A DNA stretch of 64,000 bases. Source: an uncultured Chitinophagaceae bacterium (GTDB lineage Bacteria > Bacteroidota > Bacteroidia > Chitinophagales > Chitinophagaceae). Under the pieces are notes generated by a model. The model was not told where the DNA came from and searched no databases. It saw only the letters and a list, made by a program, of their open reading frames with translations. Below, in pieces: positions 28,943 to 45,079 of this stretch. The stretch spans positions 1 through 64,000 of the forward strand of contig CALMYJ010000012.1 in NCBI GenBank assembly GCA_937873715.1, written 5' to 3'. A program made the translations under genes and the position numbers. How positions within the stretch are numbered: position 1 is the stretch's first letter; each line of letters begins with the position of its first letter.

Positions 28943-29392
28943 ATGTATGAATTAACCATCAATCAAAAAAAATACAAAGTGGATGCAGCGCCGGAAATGC
29001 CGCTGTTGTGGGTACTTCGGGATATTCTTGGCCTTACAGGCACTAAGTATGGTTGCGGTATTGCACAATGCGGTGCCTGCACTGTTCATGTTGGCGATAC
29101 TGCCATGCGTTCCTGCATGTTGCCGGTATCGGCAATAGGTGATAAACCGGTTACCACCATTGAGGGCTTGTCGGAAAAAGGCGACCACCCGGTACAAAAA
29201 GCATGGCTGGCGCATGATGTACCGCAATGTGGTTATTGCCAGGCAGGGCAGATTATGACGGCAGCAGCTTTTCTTAAAAAAACACCACAGCCCACCGATG
29301 AACAAATTGAAGAAGCAATGAATGGCAACCTCTGCCGCTGCGGTACGTATGTACGCATCAGGGCTGCTGTAAAAACTGCATCCGAATCATAA
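28943..29392 (+). CDS. 2Fe-2S subunit of an isoquinoline 1-oxidoreductase-like molybdoenzyme
   Basis: 149-residue small subunit with two [2Fe-2S] clusters that carries electrons from the molybdenum site. The N-terminal plant-type ferredoxin motif is [12 protein letters not shown] with a later Cys in RSCMLPV; the C-terminal cluster has CGYCQAGQ and NLCRCGTY. Length fits the IorA type. It is the first gene of a four-gene plus-strand run (small subunit, large subunit, XdhC, MocA-like) with a short gap to the next. There is no FAD subunit, which is typical of IorAB enzymes that use a cytochrome c and not NAD. Substrate not predictable. Confidence 0.93.
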
Positions 29393-29407
29393 TTAAACTT
29401 TATTATC

Positions 29408-31675
29408 ATGTCAACAATAAATACAGGTGTAGACAGAAGAAAATTCATTAAAGTATCTGCATTAGCCGGTGGCGGTATGCTGCTCAGCTTTAGCTGGCTG
29501 GCTGGTTGCAAACCATCTGCCACCGAAGCAGTAGCCACGCTGCCCAAAGAATGGTTCAACTTTAACGGCTATTTAAAAATTGGCGATAACGGGTTGATAA
29601 CACTCATGTCGCCCAACCCCGAAATTGGCCAGAATGTAAAAACAAGTATGCCCATGATGGTGGCAGAAGAACTGGATGTAAACTGGAAAGATGTGCTGGT
29701 AGAACAGGCCCCACTAAATACAGATTTATACAAGCCTATGCAAATAGCCGGGGGCAGCAATTCTATCAATGCGTCGTGGCAGGCCATGCGTACAGCAGGC
29801 GCTACTGCCAAACAAATGCTGAAACAGGCTGCTGCCAATGCCTGGAAAGTACCTGCAGATGAAATAGAAACCATTGAAGGAAAACTAATTCATAAAGCCA
29901 GTGGAAAATCGGCCGGTTATGGCGCATTTGCATCGGCAGCCTCACAATTACCTGTACCCGAAAAAGTAGAATTAAAAAAAATAAGTGATTTTAAAATCAT
30001 CGGTACCAGCCGCAAAAATGTAGATGCCCAAAAAATTGTAACAGGCCAGCCCTTATTTGGCCTCGATTATACACAAGAGGGTATGCTAATTGCCATGATT
30101 GTGCATCCCCCGGCATTTGGCACCATGTTTAAAGAAACAGATATAAGTGCTATTAAAGCCATGCCGGGCATTGTTGATGCTTTTTTTATTGACGTATATC
30201 AAGGCGAAAGGCAATGGTGCGATGTGGCAGCCTTTAATAAATTACTGGCAATTGTAGGCAAATCTACCTGGCAGGTAATGGAAGCTAAAAAAACATTTAA
30301 AGGCGAAACAGTCCCCATCAAAGCATCTACGGAAAAACAGGATGTATTTGGCCAGCAAATAACCATTATTACGCCCAACGGTTTTGAAAGCACCACAATA
30401 CACAAGCAACAAATGGCGGCTAACGCCAATAAAAAACTAAGGCTCGTGCGGAAAGACGGCAACCCCGAAGCTATGTTTAAAAAGGCTGCAAGCATTATTG
30501 AAAGCAGTTACTCCTGCCCCTTCCTGGCACACAGCACCCTTGAGCCGATGAATTTTTTTGCAGATGTACAAGAAGACAAAGCCATATTAACCGGCCCTGT
30601 GCAAACACCCTCATTTATGGAAAAATCGGCTGCCGACAGGCTTGGCCTCCCCTTAGATAAAGTGGAAGTAAATATGACCAGGATGGGAGGAGGCTTTGGC
30701 CGAAGACTATACGGGCATTTTTTAGTTGAGGCTGCCGTAATATCTCAAAAAATGAAAGCGCCGGTAAAACTCATCTATACCCGGGAAGATGATATGACAG
30801 ACGGCGTGTACCGGCCTGCCTATTATGCTACTTACCGGGCAGCATTAGACGAAAATAAAAACCTTATTGCCTTTCATGTACAGGCAGGTGGTATACCCGA
30901 AAGCCCGTTGATGGCTAACCGTTTTCCTGCCGGTGCTGTAGCGCATTACCTGGCCGAAGAATGGGATATCCCCACCAATATCAGCACAGGCGCCTTCAGG
31001 GCGCCGGCCTCAAATTTTATTGCCGGTGCCGAACAATCTTTCTTGGATGAACTGGCCGAAGCAATGGGTAAAGACCCTATTGAATTAAGGTTAGAGCTTT
31101 TTGAAAAAGCAAAAACTAACCCGGTTGGCACAAACAATGATTATGACATTGACCGGTATGCCGGGGTATTAAAACTGGTAAGGGAAAAATCTGGCTGGGA
31201 TAAGCCTGCACCAGCAGGAGTGCACCGTGGTGTAGCCGCTTATTTTTGTCACAAAAGCTATGTGGCCCATGTAGTAGATATCATTACACAAAACAATAAG
31301 CCGGTTATCGATAAAGTAACCACCGCTGTGGATTGCGGCATTGTTATTAATCCCGATGCAGCTACCAATTTATCCGAAGGCGCTGTGATAGATGCTATTG
31401 GCCACAGCATGTATAGCGCCATCACATTTACAAACGGCATCCCGGAACAAACCAATTTTAATACTTACCGCTTAATCCGTAATGCCGAAGCGCCCAAAAA
31501 AATAGAAACCCATTTTGTTAAAAGTGATATTGACCCAACCGGCATGGGCGAACCTTCGGGCCCACCCGTAATTGGCGCACTGGCCAATGCTTTATATAAA
31601 GCCACCGGAAAAAGATATTACCACCAGCCTTTTTCAACCGAAAATCAAACGCCTGCAAAGCAGCCATTAGGGTAA
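29408..31675 (+). CDS. Molybdopterin-binding large subunit, xanthine dehydrogenase family (IorB-like)
   Basis: 755 residues. A twin-arginine signal is at the N-terminus (DRRKFIKVSALAGGG) ending in a lipobox-like AGC (Cys39), so the folded holoenzyme should be exported and anchored in the periplasm. Two Ald_Xan_dh_C2-type regions are visible (SWQAMRTAGATAKQ early, RMGGGFGRRLYGHF in the middle, GEPSGPPVIGALANAL near the end); the Glu of GEPSG fits the catalytic base position. It is coupled to the 2Fe-2S subunit 15 bases upstream. Oxidises an aromatic heterocycle or aldehyde by family; the true substrate is unknown. Confidence 0.93.
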   Translation: MSTINTGVDRRKFIKVSALAGGGMLLSFSWLAGCKPSATEAVATLPKEWFNFNGYLKIGDNGLITLMSPNPEIGQNVKTSMPMMVAEELDVNWKDVLVEQAPLNTDLYKPMQIAGGSNSINASWQAMRTAGATAKQMLKQAAANAWKVPADEIETIEGKLIHKASGKSAGYGAFASAASQLPVPEKVELKKISDFKIIGTSRKNVDAQKIVTGQPLFGLDYTQEGMLIAMIVHPPAFGTMFKETDISAIKAMPGIVDAFFIDVYQGERQWCDVAAFNKLLAIVGKSTWQVMEAKKTFKGETVPIKASTEKQDVFGQQITIITPNGFESTTIHKQQMAANANKKLRLVRKDGNPEAMFKKAASIIESSYSCPFLAHSTLEPMNFFADVQEDKAILTGPVQTPSFMEKSAADRLGLPLDKVEVNMTRMGGGFGRRLYGHFLVEAAVISQKMKAPVKLIYTREDDMTDGVYRPAYYATYRAALDENKNLIAFHVQAGGIPESPLMANRFPAGAVAHYLAEEWDIPTNISTGAFRAPASNFIAGAEQSFLDELAEAMGKDPIELRLELFEKAKTNPVGTNNDYDIDRYAGVLKLVREKSGWDKPAPAGVHRGVAAYFCHKSYVAHVVDIITQNNKPVIDKVTTAVDCGIVINPDAATNLSEGAVIDAIGHSMYSAITFTNGIPEQTNFNTYRLIRNAEAPKKIETHFVKSDIDPTGMGEPSGPPVIGALANALYKATGKRYYHQPFSTENQTPAKQPLG

Positions 31676-31680
31676 CATAC

Positions 31681-32856
31681 ATGAAAGAAACGAGAGAAAT
31701 TATAGCCGCTCATGCCAAAGCTGTGGCCTTAGGTAAAAAAACTGTACTCGCCACCGTAGTGCATGTGGAAGGTTCCTCGTACCGCAGGCCGGGTGCAAGA
31801 ATGCTGGTTACTGAAGATGGTGAATTAACCGGTGCTATCAGCGGTGGCTGCCTTGAAGGTGATGCCTTAAAAAAAGCTTTACTGGCTATAGCACAGCAAA
31901 AAAACAAACTGGTTACTTATAATACGCTTGATGAAGACGACCATTCACTTGGCATACAATTAGGCTGTAACGGTATTGTATATATTTTATTTGAACCCAT
32001 AGATACTGCAGCCTTAAACAACCCCATTGCATTGCTTGAAAAAGCAGCAGCACAAACAAAACCCGGTGTACTGGTTACATTGTTTTGCTTAGATGACCCT
32101 GCCGCTGAACAACCTGGCACCTGCCTGCTGGCCACCGGCAACAGTTATACAGGCCATATCAAAAACCCTGCTTTACAGGCCGCAATTGAAAGGGATATTG
32201 AAAAAGTTCTTGAAAGCTTTGAATCGAAAATAAAAAAATACCCGGTGGGCAACAGTGCAGCACTGAATGGCTTTGCAGAACTGGTAAAACCTCCGGTACA
32301 ACTGGTCATTGCCGGTGCAGGCAATGATGCTTTTCCCCTGGTGCAAATGGCAAACATATTAGGATGGCAGGTTACTGTTACAGACGGAAGAAGAACTCAT
32401 GCTAACGAACAGCGCTTTTCTGCCGCAAAAAAAATTATTGTTGCAAGGCCAGCCGAAGCTTTACAATCTATTGACATTACAGCACAAACCGTTTTTGTAC
32501 TAATGAGCCATAATTATAATTACGATATGGCCATGTTGCAACAACTCATAAAAACCTCCTGCACCTATATTGGCGCATTGGGGCCCCGGAAAAAACTAGA
32601 AAAGATGCTGCAGGAACTGGAAGAAAGTGGAATGCGGATTACAGCGAATGAAAAAGAAAAAATTTATGGCCCCACAGGCCTTGACATTGGTGCTGAAACA
32701 GCAGAAGAAATTGCCCTTTCTATCATTGCAGAAATAAAAACCGTACTGGAAAAACGAAAGGGCGGCATGCTGCGCCAGAAAAACGGCCCCATACATTCTG
32801 GCAATATCTTACCGGCTAATATGCCGGTTTGCCTGCAAAATATTCAATCAGCATGA
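31681..32856 (+). CDS. XdhC/CoxI-family molybdenum cofactor insertion chaperone
   Basis: 391 residues. The N-terminal XdhC_CoxI domain (VHVEGSSYRRPGARMLV, GAISGGCLEGD) and a C-terminal Rossmann domain (LVIAGAGNDAFPLVQMANILGW; SHNYNYDMAMLQQL; YIGALGPRKK) give the standard two-domain architecture. Such proteins sulfurate or deliver the molybdenum cofactor to xanthine-dehydrogenase-family enzymes, here surely the subunit encoded five bases upstream. It overlaps the next gene by four bases. Confidence 0.93.
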   Translation: MKETREIIAAHAKAVALGKKTVLATVVHVEGSSYRRPGARMLVTEDGELTGAISGGCLEGDALKKALLAIAQQKNKLVTYNTLDEDDHSLGIQLGCNGIVYILFEPIDTAALNNPIALLEKAAAQTKPGVLVTLFCLDDPAAEQPGTCLLATGNSYTGHIKNPALQAAIERDIEKVLESFESKIKKYPVGNSAALNGFAELVKPPVQLVIAGAGNDAFPLVQMANILGWQVTVTDGRRTHANEQRFSAAKKIIVARPAEALQSIDITAQTVFVLMSHNYNYDMAMLQQLIKTSCTYIGALGPRKKLEKMLQELEESGMRITANEKEKIYGPTGLDIGAETAEEIALSIIAEIKTVLEKRKGGMLRQKNGPIHSGNILPANMPVCLQNIQSA

Positions 32857-33455
32857 CGGCCTGTATATTACTGGCAGCAGGCAACTCATCAAGAATGCAG
32901 GATAACATGGGTACAGCACCATGCAAACTGCTTTTGCCTTTCAACAATAGTACCCTGCTGCAGCATGCTGTATCTAAATTACTGGCTGTACCCAACAGCC
33001 GGCTATTTGTGGTAACCGGCTGTTATCATCAGCAAATTACTGAGGCACTGCAACAACAACAACTACAGTTGGTATTTAACGATAACTGGCAACAGGGTAT
33101 TGGCAGCTCTATACAAAAAGGCATACAATACATTCAACAACATTTCGGTGAAGCAGAAAATGTACTCATAACCGTTAGCGACCAGCCCGGTATTACCACA
33201 ACCCTGATACACAACATCATTCAATTGCAGGCAGCTACCCACAAAGGCATTGTGGGCTGCACCTATGCCGACACCACAGGCACACCAGTATTGTTTCATA
33301 AAAAATATTTTACGCTGCTGGAACAACTAACAGGGCATCAGGGTGCAAAAAAAATTATGCAGGAACATGGGTACGATGCAGCCAGCATTGATTTTCCGGA
33401 AGGAGCAACCGATATTGATACGCCTGAAGACTACAGGAAGAGCCTGTTAAAATAA
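32853..33455 (+). CDS. MobA/MocA-like molybdenum cofactor nucleotidyltransferase
   Basis: 200 residues from the ATG that overlaps the xdhC stop (ATGA); a start 24 bases upstream is possible but less likely. The nucleotide-binding signature is ILLAAGNSSRM followed by KLLLPFNNSTLLQH; SDQPGITTTLI and GTPVLFHKKYF are conserved strands. The family adds CMP or GMP to molybdopterin. In this operon it most likely makes the cytosine form (MCD) used by xanthine-dehydrogenase-family enzymes. The first loop has an insertion (MQDNMGTAPC) relative to the usual GxxxRMGxxK. Confidence 0.9.
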   Translation: MTACILLAAGNSSRMQDNMGTAPCKLLLPFNNSTLLQHAVSKLLAVPNSRLFVVTGCYHQQITEALQQQQLQLVFNDNWQQGIGSSIQKGIQYIQQHFGEAENVLITVSDQPGITTTLIHNIIQLQAATHKGIVGCTYADTTGTPVLFHKKYFTLLEQLTGHQGAKKIMQEHGYDAASIDFPEGATDIDTPEDYRKSLLK

Positions 33456-34894: not shown

Positions 34895-35905
34895 CTGGAC
34901 TCAGTTACGCATATAGCCCTTGGCGCCTGCATCGGCGAAGCTTTTTTTGAAAAAGGCTTTGGGAAAAAAGCCATGCTCTGGGGTGCGCTGGCACAAAGCG
35001 TACCCGATATCGACTTTATTGCTGCCAGTTGGCTTACTCCTGCCGAAAACCTGCTGGCACACCGTGGCTTTACACACTCTTTTTTATTTGCCTGCATCAC
35101 AGCGCCGGCACTGGCAATGACTGCTGAAAAAATTCACCGGCCGCATAATATAGCTTTCAAAAAATGGCTGTTATTTTTTTTAATACAAATAATAGTGCAC
35201 CAATTACTGGATGGATTGAATAATTATGGCGTAGGCTGGCTGGAGCCCTTTAGCCACAACCGTTATTCCCTGAACCTCATTTATGTAGCCGACCCTTTTT
35301 TTTCCTTATGGCCGGGCATAGCCTGTATCGTATTATTTATATTAAACAGGCATCACCCCCGGCGCAATCGCTGGTGGCGCTTTGGGCTTATCTTTCCCTT
35401 TGTTTACCTGCTGTATTGTGGCTACAATAAAATAAAGATAGACCATACCGTTAGGCAGGCTGTACAAGCACAACAGCTTCCACACCAGCGTTATTTTACC
35501 ACCCCTGCACCGCTCCAAAACTGGCTGTGGTATGTGGTTACCGGCAACGATAGTGGTTATTATGTGGGCTTTACCTCCGTATTTGACAGCAAAAAACAAA
35601 TTACTTTTGAATACTTTCCCCGAAATGATTCCCTCCTGCAATCAATTCATGACCATGAAGACCTGCAAAAACTCATCCGCTTTTCCAGGCAATTTTATAC
35701 GGTTGAAAAAACCGGAGATAACTTAATTTTTAACGACCTGCGCTTTGGTCAAATCATAGGATGGCAGAACCCAAAAGAACAATTTGTATTTCATTATTAC
35801 CTGCAGCATCCCGAAGATAACCGGCTGGTAATACAGCGTGGCCGCTTTGCCGGGTGGAACTGGCAGTCGTTTACCGCCCTGCTTCGCAGCATCAGGGGTA
35901 ATTAA
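34895..35905 (+). CDS. Membrane-bound metal-dependent hydrolase (YdjM/PF04307), apparent CTG start
   Basis: About 336 residues if read from the CTG at 34895, giving xDSVTHIALGACIGEAFFE, which fits the family start MDSxTHIxLG; an ATG 78 bases downstream (34973) would cut off the His in THI, a likely metal ligand. Further conserved metal-site residues are SVPDIDF and HRGFTHS. Four hydrophobic helices follow (within about 75-180), then a soluble C-terminal domain. Upstream in frame there is a TAA two codons before the CTG. Members are poorly characterised membrane hydrolases. The 3' end overlaps the convergent PLD gene by 14 bases. Confidence 0.82.
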   Translation: MDSVTHIALGACIGEAFFEKGFGKKAMLWGALAQSVPDIDFIAASWLTPAENLLAHRGFTHSFLFACITAPALAMTAEKIHRPHNIAFKKWLLFFLIQIIVHQLLDGLNNYGVGWLEPFSHNRYSLNLIYVADPFFSLWPGIACIVLFILNRHHPRRNRWWRFGLIFPFVYLLYCGYNKIKIDHTVRQAVQAQQLPHQRYFTTPAPLQNWLWYVVTGNDSGYYVGFTSVFDSKKQITFEYFPRNDSLLQSIHDHEDLQKLIRFSRQFYTVEKTGDNLIFNDLRFGQIIGWQNPKEQFVFHYYLQHPEDNRLVIQRGRFAGWNWQSFTALLRSIRGN

Positions 35906-37082
35906 CCCTTCGGTAATAAAATGTAAAAATGTAAAAAATCAGGCGAATGGCATGATAAGAAAGCCCGCGCAACAGTTGTTTAAAAATATTTTTTGTTTGC
36001 ACATGGTAGTCCGCTGTAATCTGCACACAGTCCTCCTCAATAATTTTTTCGAGGCCCTGCCTTACCATTTGTACAAACTCAGGCTTATGCACATCCAGAT
36101 TAAGTTCCACACTGGCATAGGCGCTAATATTATTGATGTTATACGATCCCAGGGTCATCCATTTGTCATCACAAACAGCCAGCTTACCATGTAAAATATT
36201 TTTTTGATACTCATACAACTCTATGCCATTGCGCAACAGCCAGTCGTACAACCAGCGTTCGGCATGCTTGGCCAGCATCACATCCGATTGGCCTGCTGCT
36301 ATAATCCTGATTTTTACGCCACGCTTAACGGCCTGCATAATCTGGCGCCGGATAGCATTACCCGGTAAAAAATAGCTGCATAAAATTGTTACATGCTGTT
36401 GCGATGTTTTCAGCATTTCAAAATAGGTATTCGAAATTTCATTCTTGCGCCAAATCCAGTCGTTGCGCCGTACCCGTATCGTTGTTTTTTGTTCTGAGGT
36501 TACAGGTGGCAGAATTGCAGGTCTTGTGGCACAGGCACTGGCTGGCAATTTTTTTCGATAACCACGCCACACCTGCATGCACAACAGGCACAGCTCGTGT
36601 GCAGCCTGCCCTTCGGTGTAAAGGGCAAAATCGAGCCAGGCGGGCTGGCCGGGCATATCGTTGTACCGGTTTGAGATATTTACACCACCCACCAGTGCAC
36701 AACGACCATCTGCCACTACTACTTTATGATGCAGCCGTCGGCCAAAATAAAAATTACTGCTGCGATACAACGGTTCAAAATAGCGAAAATGCACCCCGGC
36801 AAAACGCAGCATACTGATAAAAGAATCTTTTATTCCCTGCGATGCATAGCCATCTGCAAGCAGGTACACCTGAACTTTGCGCTGAGCTGCCTGCATCAAC
36901 GCTTCAGCTACCATCATGCCCGTTTCGTCATCATCGTATATATAAGTTTGAAGGTGAATGGTAACTGTTGCAGACTCAATAAGCTGCAGCAGCTTATCAA
37001 AATAGGGCTGCCCCCCGGGCACTAATTGTACCGTGTTGCCAGTAGTAAAACCCCTTGTTGATTTAACGCTGTGGACTGGCAT
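35892..37082 (-). CDS. Phospholipase D-family protein (cardiolipin-synthase-like)
   Basis: 396 residues with two HKD motifs, LHHKVVVADG (His118, Lys120, Asp125) and ILHGKLAVCDD (about 305), so both halves of the active site are present. It lacks the N-terminal membrane helices of classic cardiolipin synthases, as do many YbhO-like enzymes. Likely role: transphosphatidylation in cardiolipin or related lipid synthesis at the membrane; another phosphodiesterase role is possible. ATG start. Convergent with the YdjM-like gene, overlapping at the stops. Confidence 0.9.
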   Translation of the reverse strand: MPVHSVKSTRGFTTGNTVQLVPGGQPYFDKLLQLIESATVTIHLQTYIYDDDETGMMVAEALMQAAQRKVQVYLLADGYASQGIKDSFISMLRFAGVHFRYFEPLYRSSNFYFGRRLHHKVVVADGRCALVGGVNISNRYNDMPGQPAWLDFALYTEGQAAHELCLLCMQVWRGYRKKLPASACATRPAILPPVTSEQKTTIRVRRNDWIWRKNEISNTYFEMLKTSQQHVTILCSYFLPGNAIRRQIMQAVKRGVKIRIIAAGQSDVMLAKHAERWLYDWLLRNGIELYEYQKNILHGKLAVCDDKWMTLGSYNINNISAYASVELNLDVHKPEFVQMVRQGLEKIIEEDCVQITADYHVQTKNIFKQLLRGLSYHAIRLIFYIFTFYYRRVNYP

Positions 37083-37219
37083 AAGTATTGATACATATCA
37101 GTTTGGAATATAACTGTACTCATTGCAAATGACGGAAAAAGTTTTTTGATTTGCTGCGTTAAAAACAGTTTTAGCCGCTACAGCAACATTCATTTTTTTA
37201 CCGTAAAAAATTTTACGCT

Positions 37220-37402
37220 ATGACAGCAGGAAAAAACCAACCAAAAATCATTCCCCTGCCGGAACAGAATCCCGGGTTTAACCCCGAAGCAGCCCCGGCA
37301 CCCGTGCTAAAGCCCGAAGAAGAACTGGACTATATACCCGATGAAGAGGAGTTGTACGACGACAGTCCGAACGAACCGCCAGTACCCGGCGAAGGGCCTT
37401 AA
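37220..37402 (+). CDS. Small acidic proline-rich protein
   Basis: 60 residues; N-terminal basic/polar stretch (MTAGKNQPKIIPLPEQNPG) then an acidic proline-rich C-terminal half (EEELDYIPDEEELYDD). No hydrophobic segment and probably unstructured. ATG start, good isolation from neighbours (divergent from the PLD gene, 97 bases before comM). Function unknown. Confidence 0.55.
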   Translation: MTAGKNQPKIIPLPEQNPGFNPEAAPAPVLKPEEELDYIPDEEELYDDSPNEPPVPGEGP

Positions 37403-37422
37403 GCAAAATAAATTCCCCGTTG

Positions 37423-37430
37423 TATATTTG
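37423..37430 (+). promoter_or_regulatory. Bacteroidota -7 box (TATATTTG) upstream of comM
   Basis: Matches TAnnTTTG of the Bacteroidota primary sigma factor. Transcription should begin about 37435, leaving a roughly 65-base leader for the YifB/ComM gene. Confidence 0.5.
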
Positions 37431-37499
37431 AACTAACCGGTAGTACTATCAACCCTTTATTAAAGCCGCTGTGTTTCCGGGGCACAGTATCATATCAAC

Positions 37500-39047
37500 A
37501 TGCTTGTAAAAACTTTTGGCAGTGCCGTATATGGTGTTGAAGCCACAACTATTACAGTAGAAGTGAACCTGAACAACCAGGGTAAGCCCGAGCCTGTAAT
37601 AGTAGGCCTGCCCGATAGCGCCGTAAAAGAAAGCATACAGCGTGTGGAAAGTGCCATAAAAGCCAATGGCTTTTTTATGCCCCGTACCCGTCTTATAGTA
37701 AACCTTGCGCCTGCGGATATACGAAAAAGCGGCAGCGCCTTTGATTTGCCCATCGCCATTGGTGTGCTGGGCGCCAGCGAGCAATTGGATTTTCCTGAAA
37801 AATTAGCCGACTACGTGATGATGGGTGAGTTAAGTCTTGATGGCTCACTGCGGCCCATAAAAGGCGCCCTGCCTATTGCCATACAAGCACGCAAAGAGGC
37901 ATTTAAAGGCTTAATTGTACCAAAGCAAAACGCCAGAGAAGCCGCAATGGTAAATAACCTTAACGTGTATGGGATTACACACCTGGAAGATGTAATTAAT
38001 TTTTTAAAAGACGAGAGCATCCTGCAACCCATTACGGTAAATACCCGTGAAGAATTTGCCCATGCACAAAATGATTTTGAGGTAGATTTTTGTGATGTAA
38101 AAGGCCAGGAAAATATTAAAAGGGCCTTAGAAATTGCTGCGGCTGGCGGCCATAATGCAATACTGATTGGCCCACCGGGCGCCGGCAAAACGATGCTCGC
38201 CAAACGCCTGCCCACCATTCTGCCGCCACTCACACTGGCCGAAGCACTGGAAACAACCAAAATACACAGCGTGGCAGGCAAGCTGCCCGAAAATGCCACA
38301 TTAATTTCAAAAAGACCTTTTCGATCACCGCACCACACCATTTCGGATGTGGCGCTGGTAGGCGGTGGCGGCAATCCGCAGCCGGGTGAAATATCGCTGG
38401 CACACAACGGGGTATTGTTTTTGGACGAACTGCCGGAGTTTAAAAGAACAGTGCTTGAAGTAATGCGGCAGCCGATGGAAGAAAGGCGTGTAACTATATC
38501 AAGGGCTAAAGTGGCGCTGGATTTCCCGGCCTCCTTTATGCTGGTGGCCAGTATGAACCCCTGCCCCTGTGGCTTTTTCAATCATCCTGAAAGAGATTGT
38601 ACCTGCCCGCCGGGTGCCGTACAAAAATACCTGAACAAAATTTCGGGCCCGCTGCTGGACAGGATTGACCTGCATGTGGAAGTAACCCCGGTTGCCTTCA
38701 GCGAACTCTCCAGTACCCGGCAGTTTGAAAAAAGCGAACAGGTAAGGCAAAGGGTGATACAGGCAAGAGAACTGCAGGCTGAACGCTATAAAAACAATAC
38801 CGGCATTTACTGCAATGCCCAAATGAGCAGCAGCCAACTGAAAGAAATTTGTGTTATCAATACTGCTTCGCAAAACCTGCTGAAAGTAGCCATGGAAAAA
38901 CTGAATCTTTCAGCCAGGGCATACGACAGAATTCTAAAAGTAAGTCGTACCATTGCCGACCTTGCTGCAAGCCCTGGTATAAAAGCCGAGCACCTTGCTG
39001 AAGCCATTCAATACCGCAGCCTCGACAGGGAGGGCTGGAGCGGATAA
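37500..39047 (+). CDS. comM: YifB/ComM-family Mg-chelatase-like AAA+ ATPase
   Basis: 515 residues. An N-terminal Lon-like ChlI domain (LPDSAVKESIQRVESAIKAN), an Mg-chelatase AAA core with Walker A GPPGAGKT, Walker B LFLDELPEF and sensor-like MNPCPCG, and the C-terminal ChlI_C domain (LNLSARAYDRILKVSRTIAD). In naturally competent bacteria ComM is a hexameric branch-migration helicase that aids transformation. The gene is complete and isolated. Confidence 0.93.
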   Translation: MLVKTFGSAVYGVEATTITVEVNLNNQGKPEPVIVGLPDSAVKESIQRVESAIKANGFFMPRTRLIVNLAPADIRKSGSAFDLPIAIGVLGASEQLDFPEKLADYVMMGELSLDGSLRPIKGALPIAIQARKEAFKGLIVPKQNAREAAMVNNLNVYGITHLEDVINFLKDESILQPITVNTREEFAHAQNDFEVDFCDVKGQENIKRALEIAAAGGHNAILIGPPGAGKTMLAKRLPTILPPLTLAEALETTKIHSVAGKLPENATLISKRPFRSPHHTISDVALVGGGGNPQPGEISLAHNGVLFLDELPEFKRTVLEVMRQPMEERRVTISRAKVALDFPASFMLVASMNPCPCGFFNHPERDCTCPPGAVQKYLNKISGPLLDRIDLHVEVTPVAFSELSSTRQFEKSEQVRQRVIQARELQAERYKNNTGIYCNAQMSSSQLKEICVINTASQNLLKVAMEKLNLSARAYDRILKVSRTIADLAASPGIKAEHLAEAIQYRSLDREGWSG

Positions 39048-39071
39048 ATAAATAAAAATTATGCACAAAGC

Positions 39072-39830
39072 ATGAGGGCACCAACTGTAGCCATACTGTA
39101 TATCTGCACCGGCCGCTACACCGTTTTTTGGAAAAACTTTTATGATAGTGCCGCACAACTGCTGCTGCCGGGGATGGAGAAGCATTACTATGTGTTTACA
39201 GATGCCAAATCAATATACATGGGGCATTTGCCCAATGTACATCTCATTTACCAGGAGGCGCAACCCTGGCCATGGCCTACCTTGCTGCGTTTTAGATTTT
39301 TTAAAAGTATTGAAACGCAACTGCAGCAGCACGACTATATCTATTTTTTTAATGCCAATACAAGGATATACAAAACCATTACAGCAAATGATATACTGCC
39401 TGCGCCGGATGAAGAACTTGTGGTAACACAGCATCCCGGATTTTGGGATAAAACACCGGAGCTATTTACTTATGAACGAAACCCCGTTTCGGAAGCGTAT
39501 ATACCTGCAGGTGAGGGTGAAGTATATGTTGCCGGTGGCCTAAATGGTGGCCGGGCAGCCAGCTTCATTAATTTTGTAACAAAATGTTCAGCACAGGTAG
39601 ATAAAGATTTACAACAAAACATTATTGCCACCTGGCACGACGAATCGCACCTGAACAAATACATCCTTCACCGTAAAGTAAAACTGCTGCACCCCGGGTT
39701 TTTATATCCGCATGAAATGGACCTGCCTTTTGAAAAAATGATACACCTTGAATACAAAAAAGATTTTATCGGTGGGTATGGAAAATATTCCTTGTGGCAC
39801 AAATTGAAAAAAGCATGGCCCTTTAAATAA
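39072..39830 (+). CDS. Family 6 glycosyltransferase (bacterial, metal-independent type)
   Basis: 252 residues resembling the ABO/alpha-galactosyltransferase family GT6. The donor/metal site reads FFNANTR: the mammalian DxD is replaced by NxN (Asn94, Asn96), as in characterised bacterial GT6 enzymes that need no metal. The conserved acceptor and catalytic region WHDESHLNKYILH (Glu191) is intact. In the donor-specificity loop (VAGGLNGG) the residue aligned with human position 268 is Gly, as in the A enzyme, so GalNAc transfer is possible but weakly supported. First gene of a glycan cluster with two GT2 genes and a fucosyltransferase; 24 bases after comM. Confidence 0.88.
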   Translation: MRAPTVAILYICTGRYTVFWKNFYDSAAQLLLPGMEKHYYVFTDAKSIYMGHLPNVHLIYQEAQPWPWPTLLRFRFFKSIETQLQQHDYIYFFNANTRIYKTITANDILPAPDEELVVTQHPGFWDKTPELFTYERNPVSEAYIPAGEGEVYVAGGLNGGRAASFINFVTKCSAQVDKDLQQNIIATWHDESHLNKYILHRKVKLLHPGFLYPHEMDLPFEKMIHLEYKKDFIGGYGKYSLWHKLKKAWPFK

Positions 39831-39840
39831 ATCAACAGTA

Positions 39841-40632
39841 TTGAAAGCCTCTTTAATCATACCATTTTATAAAGACCTTGAAGCGCTTGAAATTATCCTG
39901 CTTGCACTCAACAGGCAATCGGCAAAAAACCAGTTTGAAGTAATCATTGCAGAAGATGATGATGCAGCCGCAACAAAAACATTTTTAAGCAGGACACGTA
40001 CAGCACTGCATTATCCTTTATTCCACAGCACCCAACCCGACGAAGGCTACCAGCGCTCCAAAGCCCTCAACAACGGCATACGGATGGCCAATAACGAACT
40101 CATCATTTTTACAGACGGCGACTGTATCCCACACCGGCATTTTATAAAAGCTTACCTGCACAGGGCAGCACCCCAATACCTGCTTTATGGCCGCCGGGTA
40201 AACCTTGGCCCGCAATACAGCCAAAAAGTTAGAACACAAAAAAAACTGGACCCACTACAATGGCATAAACTAATATGGAGCGACAGCAACCGCACTGCAG
40301 AGGGATTGTACCTGCCCTGGTATCCGCAGGCTTTAAAAAGCAAGCGCCAGCCATGGGGTTGCAATATGGGTATATTAAAAGAAAACCTGCTTGCCATCAA
40401 TGGCTTTGATGAAGACTACCGGGAATGGGGACCCGAAGACCTTGACCTTTACAGCCGGCTAATACAATCGGGCTGCAGCAGCTATTCGCTGAAATACGAA
40501 GCGATTATATACCACCTGTATCACACCAGCAAAGGCTTACCCGAAGTAGTGCAAAGAGGACAGGAATTATACCAGCGCAAAATGGAGGCTGGCATTATAT
40601 TTTGTATGAACGGGCTGATTAAACAACCATAA
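39841..40632 (+). CDS. Family 2 glycosyltransferase
   Basis: 263 residues starting at TTG ten bases after the GT6 stop. N-terminal GT-A fold (ASLIIPFYKDLEALEIILLAL, IIAEDDDAA) with the donor/metal site FTDGDC, and a C-terminal extension with WGPEDLDLYSRL characteristic of the GT2 plus galactosyltransferase-C arrangement. Donor unknown. Cytoplasmic or peripherally membrane-bound, probably adding one sugar to a surface glycan or lipid-linked precursor. Confidence 0.9.
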   Translation: MKASLIIPFYKDLEALEIILLALNRQSAKNQFEVIIAEDDDAAATKTFLSRTRTALHYPLFHSTQPDEGYQRSKALNNGIRMANNELIIFTDGDCIPHRHFIKAYLHRAAPQYLLYGRRVNLGPQYSQKVRTQKKLDPLQWHKLIWSDSNRTAEGLYLPWYPQALKSKRQPWGCNMGILKENLLAINGFDEDYREWGPEDLDLYSRLIQSGCSSYSLKYEAIIYHLYHTSKGLPEVVQRGQELYQRKMEAGIIFCMNGLIKQP

Positions 40633-40641
40633 AAAAGAAAC

Positions 40642-41469
40642 ATGATTGCAGTACACTTACGTGGCGGACTTGGCAACCAGATGTTTCAGTATGCCCTGTA
40701 CCTTGCTTTTAAAGCGGCGGGCAAAAAAGCAGGCATCGATATATCGCATTATAAAAACAGTACAAACACTTCGTACGAACTACAAAGAATTTTTGGTGTG
40801 CAGGCACCCATTGTTGGCCCGGCTAAAAAAATTTTCCTGAAAGCAGGCTGGCAGGCACTACGCCCCTTTTACAAGTTACCCTTTGCTGAAACCGACGATA
40901 TGTTTGGCCGGTACAACAACAAAATCCTGCGCCTGAACTTTGCCTACCTGAAAGGCTACTGGCAATGCGAACAATATTTTTTGCAGATAGCCGGTGCTGT
41001 GAGGCAGTGTTACAACTTCCCGGAATTTCAGGACGAAGCCAATATCAACATCCTCAACAGCATCAGCAACTGTAATGCCGTAAGCCTGCATGTGCGCCGC
41101 GGCGATTACCTTAAAGATGGCAGAAACGATGCCCTTGATGCAGCATATTACAACAGGGCGGTTGAATATTTTGAAACAAAACTGCACAAGCCGGTATTTT
41201 ATATTTTTTCGGATGATGCAGCTTGGGCCGCCACCAATATAAAAGCAACGCATGCCCATTATATTAACTGGAATACCGGTGCAGCAAGTTACCAGGATAT
41301 GCAACTGATGAGCCGCTGCAAACACCATATTATTGCCAACAGTTCATTTAGCTGGTGGGGTGCATGGCTCAATACCAATCCCGAAAAAATAGTGGTGGCA
41401 CCAGCACAATGGCTGCACTGGATGGACAGCACCAGGGATATAATACCGGCAGCGTGGGTTACGTTGTAG
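40642..41469 (+). CDS. Alpha-1,2-fucosyltransferase-like (GT11)
   Basis: 275 residues. The GT11 signatures are all present: RGGLGNQMFQYALY at the N-terminus, the GDP-binding motif HVRRGDY in the middle and ANSSFSWWGAWLN near the end. It should transfer L-fucose from GDP-fucose in alpha-1,2 linkage to galactose. It begins ten bases after a GT2 gene and is likely co-transcribed with GT6 and GT2. The 3' end overlaps the convergent GT2 by 11 bases. With the GT6 gene it forms the enzyme pair for an H- then A/B-type epitope. Confidence 0.92.
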   Translation: MIAVHLRGGLGNQMFQYALYLAFKAAGKKAGIDISHYKNSTNTSYELQRIFGVQAPIVGPAKKIFLKAGWQALRPFYKLPFAETDDMFGRYNNKILRLNFAYLKGYWQCEQYFLQIAGAVRQCYNFPEFQDEANINILNSISNCNAVSLHVRRGDYLKDGRNDALDAAYYNRAVEYFETKLHKPVFYIFSDDAAWAATNIKATHAHYINWNTGAASYQDMQLMSRCKHHIIANSSFSWWGAWLNTNPEKIVVAPAQWLHWMDSTRDIIPAAWVTL

Positions 41470-42274
41470 CGGCAACCGGCAGGTACTGGCTGATACCTTT
41501 GGTACACCAAACCGATTTGTCAGCAATAGATTTTTCGAGCAGGGCATCATTGGTACTAAGGCTTTGGCGGGATAGTACCGGGTGCCATAGATGATACGTG
41601 ATAGCCGCAAATTTTATATTCCTTCTTTTTACCCCGCTATTTAGCAGGCGCACATATAAATCAGAATCTTCCCTGCCCCAGCCTGTAAACGATTCATCAA
41701 AACCATTTACCCGGATAAAATGCTGACGGAATACACCCATCAATCCGCCCCTTGCACCCTCATGGGTGGTGCTTCCTTTTACAACATGCTGCAGCCAGGG
41801 TAAGCGTATGCCGGATAAATGATTTTTCTCTGCCTTAAAAAAATTATAACGAACCGGGGTGAAGCGGTTTTGCAATAACTGCCTGGTATATTTTTCGTTT
41901 AAAAAAACACGACTGGCCACCAAAATCTCATCAGGCCGTATACTTTGCTGATAGTCGTATATAAAAAAGGGATGCAACACCAAATCACCATCCAAAAAAA
42001 TGATATAGCTGCCTGTAGCTTTTGCGGCTGCTTTGTTTTTGATGGCAGATAAGCGATACCCGTCGTCTTCGTGCCAAACATGAACAAGCGGTACCGGAAA
42101 GCTTTGCTGGTAACGCTCTACCAGCACCAGGGTATCGGATGCAGAGCCATCATCGGCAATAATCACCTCCTGAGGCAACAGCTCTTGTGCCATCACACTT
42201 TGAAGTACCAGCTCCAGGTAAGTGGGACTGTTGTAAGTGGATATGATTAGAGAAACAGAAATACTATGCTGCAT
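41459..42274 (-). CDS. Family 2 glycosyltransferase (GT2 with Glyco_tranf_2C-type C-terminus)
   Basis: 271 residues from the ATG at 42274 (MQHSISVSLIISTYNSPTYL); a longer in-frame start lies 45 bases upstream. GT-A core with IIADDGSASD and the DxD-like LDGDLV, then RLPWLQHVVKG and GWGREDSDLYVRLL. Related to the plus-strand GT2 at 39841 by the shared (W)GxEDxDLY motif. It is divergent from the ABC exporter and convergent with the fucosyltransferase. Confidence 0.9.
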   Translation of the reverse strand: MQHSISVSLIISTYNSPTYLELVLQSVMAQELLPQEVIIADDGSASDTLVLVERYQQSFPVPLVHVWHEDDGYRLSAIKNKAAAKATGSYIIFLDGDLVLHPFFIYDYQQSIRPDEILVASRVFLNEKYTRQLLQNRFTPVRYNFFKAEKNHLSGIRLPWLQHVVKGSTTHEGARGGLMGVFRQHFIRVNGFDESFTGWGREDSDLYVRLLNSGVKRRNIKFAAITYHLWHPVLSRQSLSTNDALLEKSIADKSVWCTKGISQYLPVAATT

Positions 42275-42335
42275 GGTTGTATTTAATGCAAAAAAATAGG
42301 TGCGCCATAAACGGCACACAAATATACAACACCTA

Positions 42336-42361
42336 TATACATCGAAACATTTCGATGTATA
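42336..42361. promoter_or_regulatory. 26-bp palindromic operator upstream of the ABC exporter
   Basis: Perfect 12-bp arms, tatacatcgaaa and tttcgatgtata, around a CA spacer. It ends eight bases before the -7 box and covers the expected -33 region, so a bound repressor would block transcription. It also lies 60 bases upstream of the divergent GT2 start. The binding protein is not encoded nearby and is unidentified. Confidence 0.8.
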
Positions 42362-42369
42362 GTTTGCAT

Positions 42370-42377
42370 TACCTTTG
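42370..42377 (+). promoter_or_regulatory. Bacteroidota -7 box (TACCTTTG) of the ABC exporter
   Basis: Exact TAnnTTTG, four bases before the start codon. Transcription would begin at or next to the ATG, predicting a leaderless or nearly leaderless mRNA. Confidence 0.65.
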
Positions 42378-42381
42378 CGCT

Positions 42382-44175
42382 ATGAAACTATTACTACAAT
42401 ACCTTAAACCATACAAATGGCTGGTGGTGCTTACGCTGTTCCTGGCGGCTATCAACATCATTTTTTCACTATTCGATCCCATACTGTTTGGCCGCATTAT
42501 ACAGCTTGCCGAAAATGAAGATAAAGTGCAAAGCATCAGCGGCCTTCACATCAACGGCTTTTGGGGTAAAGTGATTGAAATACTATTGCTATCAATGGGT
42601 ACGGCGATGATAAGCCGTATTGCAAAAAATTTCCAGGATTATTTTGCCAATGTAATTATTCAAAAATTTGGTGCCCGGATTTTTACCGATGGCTTAAAAC
42701 ATGCCATCAAACTTCCTTACCAGGACTTTGAAACGCAGCGCAGCGGCGAAACCCTGAGCATTCTTACAAAAGTGCGTACCGATACCGAAAAGTTTATCAA
42801 CTACTTTTTAAACGCACTTTTTTCCATCGTAGTAGGTGTAGGTTTTGTATTTGTATATGCAGCAATTTATATCCACTGGACGGTGCCTTTAGCCTATATT
42901 TTTGGCATAGTACTCATTACCGTTACCACCAATATATTTAGTAAAAAAGTAAAAACCATTCAAAAGGATATTGTATCCAAAACCACATCGCTTGCCGGTG
43001 CCACCACCGAAAGCCTGCGGAATATTGAACTGGTAAAAAGCCTTGGCCTGGCGGAGCAGGAAGTAAAGCGGTTAAACAATAACACGTACAAAATATTAGG
43101 CCTGGAACTCACTAAGGTAAAACGCATACGCAGCATCAGTTTTTTGCAGGGCACCATTGTAAACACCCTTAGGCAGGTAATACTATTTTTACTAATGTGG
43201 CTTGTATTTGGCAATAAGATGCAACCACACGAACTGGTAACGATGCAGATTTTTTCCTTTTTTATTTTTGGCCCCCTGCAGGAAATTGGGAACATCTTAC
43301 TCAGCTATCGTGAGGCCGAAGCTTCGCTGAATAATTATCACAACCTGATGCAAAAAGCCCCTGAAGCCACACCGGCCAAGCCACTTACTTTAGGCAGTAT
43401 CGAAACACTGTCGTTCAGGCAGGTGGGTTTCAGGCACGAAACAGCCGCACAAAAAGCCATTGATGCCATCAGCTTTGAGGTAAAACTTGGTGAAACGATT
43501 GCTTTTGTGGGCCCCAGTGGTAGCGGTAAATCTACCTTAATGAAACTACTGGTAGGGTTGTACCGTCCGCAGGAAGGCAAGGTGCTGTACAACGGCATCG
43601 ATGAAAACTCCATCAACTTTGAAGAGTTGCGTAAACAAATTGGCTTTGTAACACAGGATACCCAGCTTTTCAGCGGCAGCATTCGTGAAAATTTAATGTT
43701 TGTAAATCCTGATGCTACCGAAGAGGATTTAATTGATGTACTCAAAAAAGCTTCCTGTATCAACCTGCTGGCAAAAGCCGAAAACGGGCTGGATACCGTA
43801 ATTGGCGAAGGTGGGTTTAAATTATCCGGCGGCGAAAAACAACGCCTTTCTATTGCAAGGGCATTGTTACGCAGGCCCAAACTATTGATATTTGATGAAG
43901 CCACTTCGGCACTGGATTCCATAACAGAAGAAGAAATTACTACTACCATTAAAGACATCTCTTCGCAAAGCGAACAAATCACCATACTAATTGCTCACCG
44001 CTTAAGCACCATAATGCATGCAGACAGGATATATGTGCTGGAGCAGGGCGAAGTGGTAGAAACAGGCAGCCACCAAAGCCTGCTGGAAGAAAAAGGTTTG
44101 TATTATGCAATGTGGCGCCAGCAGATTGGAGAAAGAAAAAGGCTACAACTTACCGAATCAACCACTACTTCATAA
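42382..44175 (+). CDS. ABC exporter, fused membrane and ATPase domains
   Basis: 597 residues from the ATG at 42382, which the promoter position supports over the upstream in-frame ATG at 42277. Six-helix transmembrane domain (about 1-315) of the type IV exporter class, then an ATPase with Walker A GPSGSGKST, signature LSGGEKQRLSIARAL and Walker B LLIFDEATSALD. A half-transporter that should dimerise; substrate (lipid, peptide, glycan or drug) unknown. Placed at the end of the glycan cluster but regulated from its own palindromic promoter. Confidence 0.93.
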   Translation: MKLLLQYLKPYKWLVVLTLFLAAINIIFSLFDPILFGRIIQLAENEDKVQSISGLHINGFWGKVIEILLLSMGTAMISRIAKNFQDYFANVIIQKFGARIFTDGLKHAIKLPYQDFETQRSGETLSILTKVRTDTEKFINYFLNALFSIVVGVGFVFVYAAIYIHWTVPLAYIFGIVLITVTTNIFSKKVKTIQKDIVSKTTSLAGATTESLRNIELVKSLGLAEQEVKRLNNNTYKILGLELTKVKRIRSISFLQGTIVNTLRQVILFLLMWLVFGNKMQPHELVTMQIFSFFIFGPLQEIGNILLSYREAEASLNNYHNLMQKAPEATPAKPLTLGSIETLSFRQVGFRHETAAQKAIDAISFEVKLGETIAFVGPSGSGKSTLMKLLVGLYRPQEGKVLYNGIDENSINFEELRKQIGFVTQDTQLFSGSIRENLMFVNPDATEEDLIDVLKKASCINLLAKAENGLDTVIGEGGFKLSGGEKQRLSIARALLRRPKLLIFDEATSALDSITEEEITTTIKDISSQSEQITILIAHRLSTIMHADRIYVLEQGEVVETGSHQSLLEEKGLYYAMWRQQIGERKRLQLTESTTTS

Positions 44176-44193
44176 TACCTTAACCCTCCAGCC

Positions 44194-44556
44194 ATGAATA
44201 AAGAAAATACAACTGTAGATACCTACCTATCAACATTCCCCGCAGCAGTGCAGGAAAGACTTAATGCCCTGCGCCACTGTATTCTTTTAAATGCCCCTGG
44301 GGCGGATGAAAGCATGGCCTATGGCATGCCGGCTTATAAGCTACACAAAAAACCACTGGTATATTTTGGAGCTTTTACGCACCATATCGGCTTATATGCC
44401 ACGCCAACCGGGCATACAAAATTCAAGAAGGCGCTGTCTGTTTATAAGCAGGGCAAGGGCTCGGTACAATTTCCGCACAGCAAACCATTACCTATGGATT
44501 TGATTGAAGACATCATCCGCTTCCGGGTAAAAGAAAATATGCAACAAAAGCCCTGA
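44194..44556 (+). CDS. DUF1801-family protein
   Basis: 120 residues. YhdG/YdhG-like DUF1801 signature: FPAAVQERLNALRHCI, ESMAYGMPAYKLHKKPLVYFGAF and the C-terminal PLPMDLIEDIIRFRVKEN. Members bind iron in some reports and are widespread single-domain proteins. ATG start 18 bases after the ABC exporter stop, so possibly in the same transcript. Role not established. Confidence 0.88.
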   Translation: MNKENTTVDTYLSTFPAAVQERLNALRHCILLNAPGADESMAYGMPAYKLHKKPLVYFGAFTHHIGLYATPTGHTKFKKALSVYKQGKGSVQFPHSKPLPMDLIEDIIRFRVKENMQQKP

Positions 44557-44622
44557 AGCATTTGACAAAGAAGTTGAAAGACTATTGTAACATTTATTAC
44601 AATCTGCCGTGTTGCATACGCT

Positions 44623-44630
44623 TAACTTTG
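44623..44630 (+). promoter_or_regulatory. Bacteroidota -7 box (TAACTTTG) of the DUF983 gene
   Basis: TAnnTTTG five bases before the ATG at 44636. Confidence 0.55.
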
Positions 44631-44635
44631 CAGTG

Positions 44636-45079
44636 ATGGACAATAAAATACCAAGGCCGAACTATTTTTGGAGTATACTAAGCATGAAGTGCCCCCGCTG
44701 CAGGCGTGGACCAATGTTTAAAGATGGCAATCCGTATAAAAATGTAAAACTGTCGCACATCTTTAATATGCCAGAGCATTGCCCTGAGTGTAAGCAACGC
44801 TACGATTTGGAACAGGGCTTTTGGTATGGCACCGGCTATGTAAGCTATGCCCTTACGGTGGCAATATCGGTTACAACTTTTATAGCCTGGTGGGTATTAA
44901 TTGGTATTTCTACAGATGATAACCGGATATTCTGGTGGCTGGGTATAAATGCCGTATTGTTAATTGTATTACAACCCTGGCTGATGCGGCTGAGCCGGGT
45001 GATATACCTGTACTTTTTTGTACGCTACGACGAAAACTACCGGGAAACAGCCCCGCAGGAATTTGATCATAAACAGTAA
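44636..45079 (+). CDS. DUF983 membrane protein with zinc-ribbon-like motif
   Basis: 147 residues from the ATG at 44636. N-terminal CPRCRRG and CPECKQRY give four cysteines spaced like a zinc ribbon, then two membrane helices (about 65-90 and 100-122). This is the DUF983 family, common in Bacteroidota and alphaproteobacteria, with unknown function. It has its own promoter immediately upstream. Confidence 0.9.
   Translation: MDNKIPRPNYFWSILSMKCPRCRRGPMFKDGNPYKNVKLSHIFNMPEHCPECKQRYDLEQGFWYGTGYVSYALTVAISVTTFIAWWVLIGISTDDNRIFWWLGINAVLLIVLQPWLMRLSRVIYLYFFVRYDENYRETAPQEFDHKQ

Follow-up and report, generated by a model that had tools for sequence, protein, structure and literature searches.

The window analysed here is a 64,000-nucleotide stretch of the genome of an uncultured Chitinophagaceae bacterium. 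In it we found three glycosyltransferase genes, GT6, GT2 (a) and GT11, arranged head to tail with stop-to-start gaps of 10 bp and then 9 bp (Table 1). The first-pass annotation had placed these three families in a single run with another GT2 gene adjoining it, and both statements proved correct: the profile scores lie far above the curated cut-offs, and the second GT2 gene is convergent, its 3' end overlapping the end of GT11 by 11 bp. The ABC exporter gene comes next. The start of GT2 (a) as read is TTG; for GT2 (b), an ATG at about 42274 is a likelier start than the GTG at 42319, and the true start of the ABC exporter is probably at about 42382. The source genome (3.86 Mb in 38 contigs, rated 100% complete) contains exactly one GT6 and one GT11. 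Upstream, the open reading frames at 28943–33455 read as if they encoded a molybdenum hydroxylase system, with oxidoreductase subunits both small and large, an XdhC-like protein and a MobA-like protein.

Table 1. Genes of the glycosyltransferase cassette and its two edges (positions in the window).
Feature	Position	Strand	Basis
comM (Mg-chelatase-like ATPase); backbone gene, left cassette edge	37500..39047	+	PF01078/PF13541/PF13335
GT6, predicted metal-independent alpha1,3-GalNAc-transferase on Fuc-alpha1,2-Gal	39072..39830	+	PF03414, NF041524, BoGT6a likeness
GT2 (a), predicted beta-hexosyltransferase supplying residue for fucosylation	39841..40632	+	PF00535 + PF02709
GT11, predicted alpha1,2-fucosyltransferase	40642..41469	+	PF01531, HVRRGDY, model fold
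GT2 (b), convergent second GT2 of cassette	41459..42319	-	PF00535 + PF02709
ABC exporter (permease-ATPase fusion); MsbA-like backbone gene, right cassette edge	42277..44175	+	PF00664 + PF00005

The GT6 protein scored 120.9 bits against PF03414 (cut-off 25) and 283.5 bits against the NCBIfam family 6 model NF041524 (cut-off 250) and, with its Glu, Lys and NXN-type motif, belongs to CAZy family GT6. Its best solved relative is BoGT6a, the A-antigen synthase of Bacteroides ovatus (E=2e-54; 44% identity over 229 aligned residues), followed by the human ABO transferases (E about 2e-27). BoGT6a, in which the metal motif NAN marks the metal-independent form, converts UDP-GalNAc and 2'-fucosyllactose to the A antigen (PMC3961637). 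The enzyme described here has the same NAN motif and keeps equivalents of the catalytic E192, the donor-binding K231 and W189-H190-D191 (WHDE) of BoGT6a, as well as those of T10, Y13, W66, T70, R73, H122 and T134. Its donor triplet, AGG, is also that of the GalNAc-specific BoGT6a. From these features we predict, purely by analogy, that it is a GalNAc-transferase; replacement of the BoGT6a donor contact N69 by Pro counts against an A-type product.

GT6 enzymes of both donor types have been characterised, and WbnI of E. coli O86, a GT6 that extends the H structure, makes the B antigen (PMC4202792). Since a three-residue pattern is the sole basis of our donor assignment, the same cassette might instead transfer Gal and yield the E. 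coli O86 structure, Gal-alpha1,3(Fuc-alpha1,2)Gal. We consider such a B-type product unlikely, because AGG matches the GalNAc-specific enzyme, whereas in human GTB the triplet ends in Ala (Met266/Ala268, against Leu266/Gly268 in human GTA; PMC4202792).

The GT11 protein scored 115.9 bits against PF01531 (cut-off 23.9). It contains the motif HVRRGDY, in which H150, R152, R153 and D155 are invariant across 14 homologues. We found no relative of it in the PDB by sequence, but a fold search with its AlphaFold model (pLDDT 90) gave fucosyltransferases, the nearest being Arabidopsis FUT1, NodZ and FUT8, with TM-scores around 0.5. The profile match, the HxRRxDY GDP-fucose-binding motif and the GT-B fucosyltransferase fold together place it in CAZy family GT11, and we predict from sequence and model that it is an alpha1,2-fucosyltransferase. 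The family also includes the alpha1,3-fucosyltransferase HhFT2 (PMC4202792), which counts against the formation of an H-type precursor and hence of an A-type epitope. GT2 (a) is nearest to K4 chondroitin polymerase both by sequence and by fold, and its C-terminal part resembles beta-1,4-galactosyltransferase. This likeness fits an inverting hexosyltransferase that would provide a beta-linked acceptor, though it does not prove that the sugar is galactose.

The first-pass annotation called for a search for GDP-fucose synthesis genes and would have abandoned its blood-group proposal had the genome lacked the pathway. That ground for rejection falls away: away from the cassette, on contig C5, an exopolysaccharide-type gene run includes gmd (591 bits, cut-off 415) and, adjoining it, fcl (506.7 bits, cut-off 500). 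The fucose salvage enzyme Fkp was searched for in the source genome and not found. As for the other donors, galE scored above its cut-off and would supply UDP-Gal, and a relative of the TviC/WbpP-like epimerases scored below the cut-off of its model.

The surroundings of the cassette vary within the genus. In 12 cassette-free relatives comM is followed directly by the ABC gene, with 63–315 bp between them, and the ABC gene occurs in 27 of 30 genus genomes. Thus the exporter that the first-pass annotation had put beside the glycosyltransferases does adjoin them, but it belongs to the chromosomal backbone, and these counts rule it out as a member of the cassette. A role as the main lipid A exporter is also unsupported; the protein scored 314.5 bits against the MsbA model (cut-off 602), and the genome has two better MsbA matches elsewhere. 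In other members of the genus the interval beside the ABC gene is occupied by other glycosyltransferases, among them members of the Pfam GT2, GT4 and GT25 families; the interval of genome G002 contains GT11 together with a GT2 homologue but lacks GT6. The four-gene order GT6-GT2-GT11-GT2 recurs in genome G038 at a different location, with 48–62% protein identity (62% for GT2 (b), retained beside GT11 at locus L020). Across the genus, the comM/ABC junction (39048–42381 here) is thus a hot spot at which the set of glycosyltransferase genes varies. The variable content of the interval, its GT6-less form in G002 and the relocated four-gene set in G038 indicate that the four genes are a movable cassette at a surface-glycan gene hot spot whose constant neighbour is the exporter.

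A patchy distribution (GT6 in 4 of 59 genus genomes, a sample chosen without regard to the cassette) and a site of variable content would also suit recently acquired genes that are unexpressed or decaying. We regard this as very improbable, given that all four reading frames are intact and the catalytic residues are conserved, and that the gene order kept in G038 at such protein divergence implies selection.

The association of the two families extends well beyond this genome. GT11 lies near GT6 in all four GT6-bearing genomes of the genus and, when genus, family and phylum samples of Bacteroidota are combined, within 3 kb of GT6 at 14 of 16 loci. The two unlinked loci carry a GT6 fragment (G087) and a DXD-type GT6 (G226); every one of the 14 NXN GT6 loci in the Bacteroidota sample adjoins a GT11. 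GT11 itself is present in only 47 of the 200 genomes of the family sample, and none of 30 control GT4 loci had it within 1.5 kb, as compared with 13 of 16 GT6 loci (Fisher p=5.5e-9); a second control, PF05704, gave too few loci for stand-alone use. A single-sequence scan of genome contigs found no relative, whereas an alignment-based scan did. Across a species-level genome collection of many phyla, GT11 lay within 6 kb of GT6 at 60 of 80 further loci, which share a few genomes with the Bacteroidota samples and, being the best matches to the NXN alignment, are biased to the NXN branch. The pairing, which the first-pass annotation had limited to a few bacteria such as E. coli O86, is thus common among GT6-bearing bacteria. 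After pooling of both sets and reduction at 80% identity, 55 of 73 loci remained linked, including 19 of 20 AGG-type cellular representatives and none of the five with TGA, MGA or FGA triplets. GT6 and GT11 distances were correlated over 52 pairs (r=0.46, a value reached in 0 of 2000 permutations), as is partly expected for genomes that share ancestry. GT6–GT11 linkage is strongly non-random. We found no published survey of this linkage in the literature searched, which is not proof of its absence. The G226 gene (L040:9479–10327), from another member of the family, is a rare bacterial GT6 with the DXD-type motif DAD and the triplet GGS and has no GT11 nearby; it perhaps uses a different acceptor or is a viral-type enzyme.

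Acceptors cannot be predicted from sequence, and GT6 can act without GT11, as 25% of the sampled GT6 loci have none within 6 kb. The cassette could therefore build a glycan with fucose and an alpha-hexosyl residue in a non-ABH arrangement, for example on separate branches. The constant company of GT11 at the NXN loci of the Bacteroidota sample and its near-constant company among AGG-type cellular representatives speak against an unrelated acceptor of this kind, to which we give a low probability.

The same pair is found in viruses. On IMG/VR contigs, whose viral status is as given by IMG/VR, GT11 lay within 6 kb of GT6 at 65 of 80 loci (35 of 47 after reduction). The viral GT6 motif was DXD in 42 of the 47 representatives, while bacterial GT6 are mostly NXN. 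The isolated cyanophages P-SSM2 and ACG-2014f both encode GT6 and GT11. A 2025 paper described soil phages with both families and called GT11 new to phages (PMC12016548); contrary to that statement, the P-SSM2 record (AY939844.2, PSSM2_265, L306:3734–4528) already annotates a family 11 glycosyltransferase.

Taken together, we favour, with somewhat better than even confidence, the reading that the cassette directs synthesis of a histo-blood-group-like epitope of A type, GalNAc-alpha1,3(Fuc-alpha1,2)Gal-beta, which would form the outer end of a surface glycan linked to a lipid. Situated between the backbone genes comM and the MsbA-like ABC exporter, the cassette would build this outer end in three steps. 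GT2 would add a beta-linked Gal-type residue, GT11 would use GDP-fucose to attach alpha1,2-fucose to it, giving an H-type structure, and GT6 would cap the product with alpha1,3-GalNAc from UDP-GalNAc. All three enzymes would act in the cytoplasm on the lipid-linked glycan, which would then be flipped by an ABC transporter. We infer the linkage and donor specificities, the order of action, the carrier and the export. Against this reading, the carrier and the flippase are guesses, and the ABC gene is not specific to the cassette. A histo-blood-group-like epitope on the cells is what the model predicts. The ten proteins scanned at 34973–45079 include neither Wzx nor Wzy nor an initiating transferase; it is therefore unlikely that the cassette by itself gives rise to a polymerised O antigen of the E. 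coli O86 kind.

More speculatively, GT11 and GT6 may together be a mobile module for surface glycans that is widespread among bacteria and their phages. The null, H-only (G002) and A-type (G000, G025) states of the comM/ABC junction in the genus would then be a prokaryotic equivalent of ABO polymorphism, possibly driven by phages that themselves carry a metal-dependent (DXD) version. We put this forward tentatively and think it rather less likely to be right than wrong.

The gene pair is real and its interpretation plausible, and the kind of system is already known from E. coli O86, H. mustelae and B. ovatus. To this the present analysis adds the prediction of an A-type product, the genes for donor supply, the description of a cassette at a hot spot, and figures for GT6–GT11 linkage in bacteria and viruses. 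A predicted A-type cassette occurs together with a GDP-fucose pathway in one Chitinophagaceae bacterium, whose closest relatives with the cassette are genomes from environmental metagenomes, and the survey finds GT6 and GT11 to be frequent neighbours across bacteria and viruses. In genome data the pair could mark microbes that are sources of ABH-like antigens, which are presumed to trigger natural antibodies against A and B; it also offers a set of enzyme pairs for glycan synthesis.

The wbn cluster of E. coli O86 contains WbnI (GT6), a GT2 galactosyltransferase and a GT11 fucosyltransferase; with its flippase and polymerase it makes up a complete O-antigen cluster. By description, the present locus resembles it in uniting the GT6, GT2 and GT11 families; it differs in being a glycosyltransferase cassette between backbone genes, predicted to be of A rather than B type. 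Helicobacter mustelae BgtA is a bacterial GT6 that transfers GalNAc onto Fuc-alpha1,2-Gal, giving the A epitope on cells (PMC4202792). The GalNAc cap predicted here is, again by description, alike, although H. mustelae, unlike the source bacterium, is an animal pathogen. The closest enzyme, BoGT6a (PDB 4AYJ, 4AYL, 4CJ8, 4CJB and 4CJC), shares the features listed above apart from N69, but comes from another organism and another gene neighbourhood, and the activity of our GT6 is a predicted one. Prochlorococcus phage P-SSM2 similarly has GT11 (PSSM2_265) and GT6 (PSSM2_268) within a single run of genes, separated by 1.5 kb; it differs in that the pair is phage-borne and in the DVD (DXD) motif of its GT6, which is thus probably metal-dependent.
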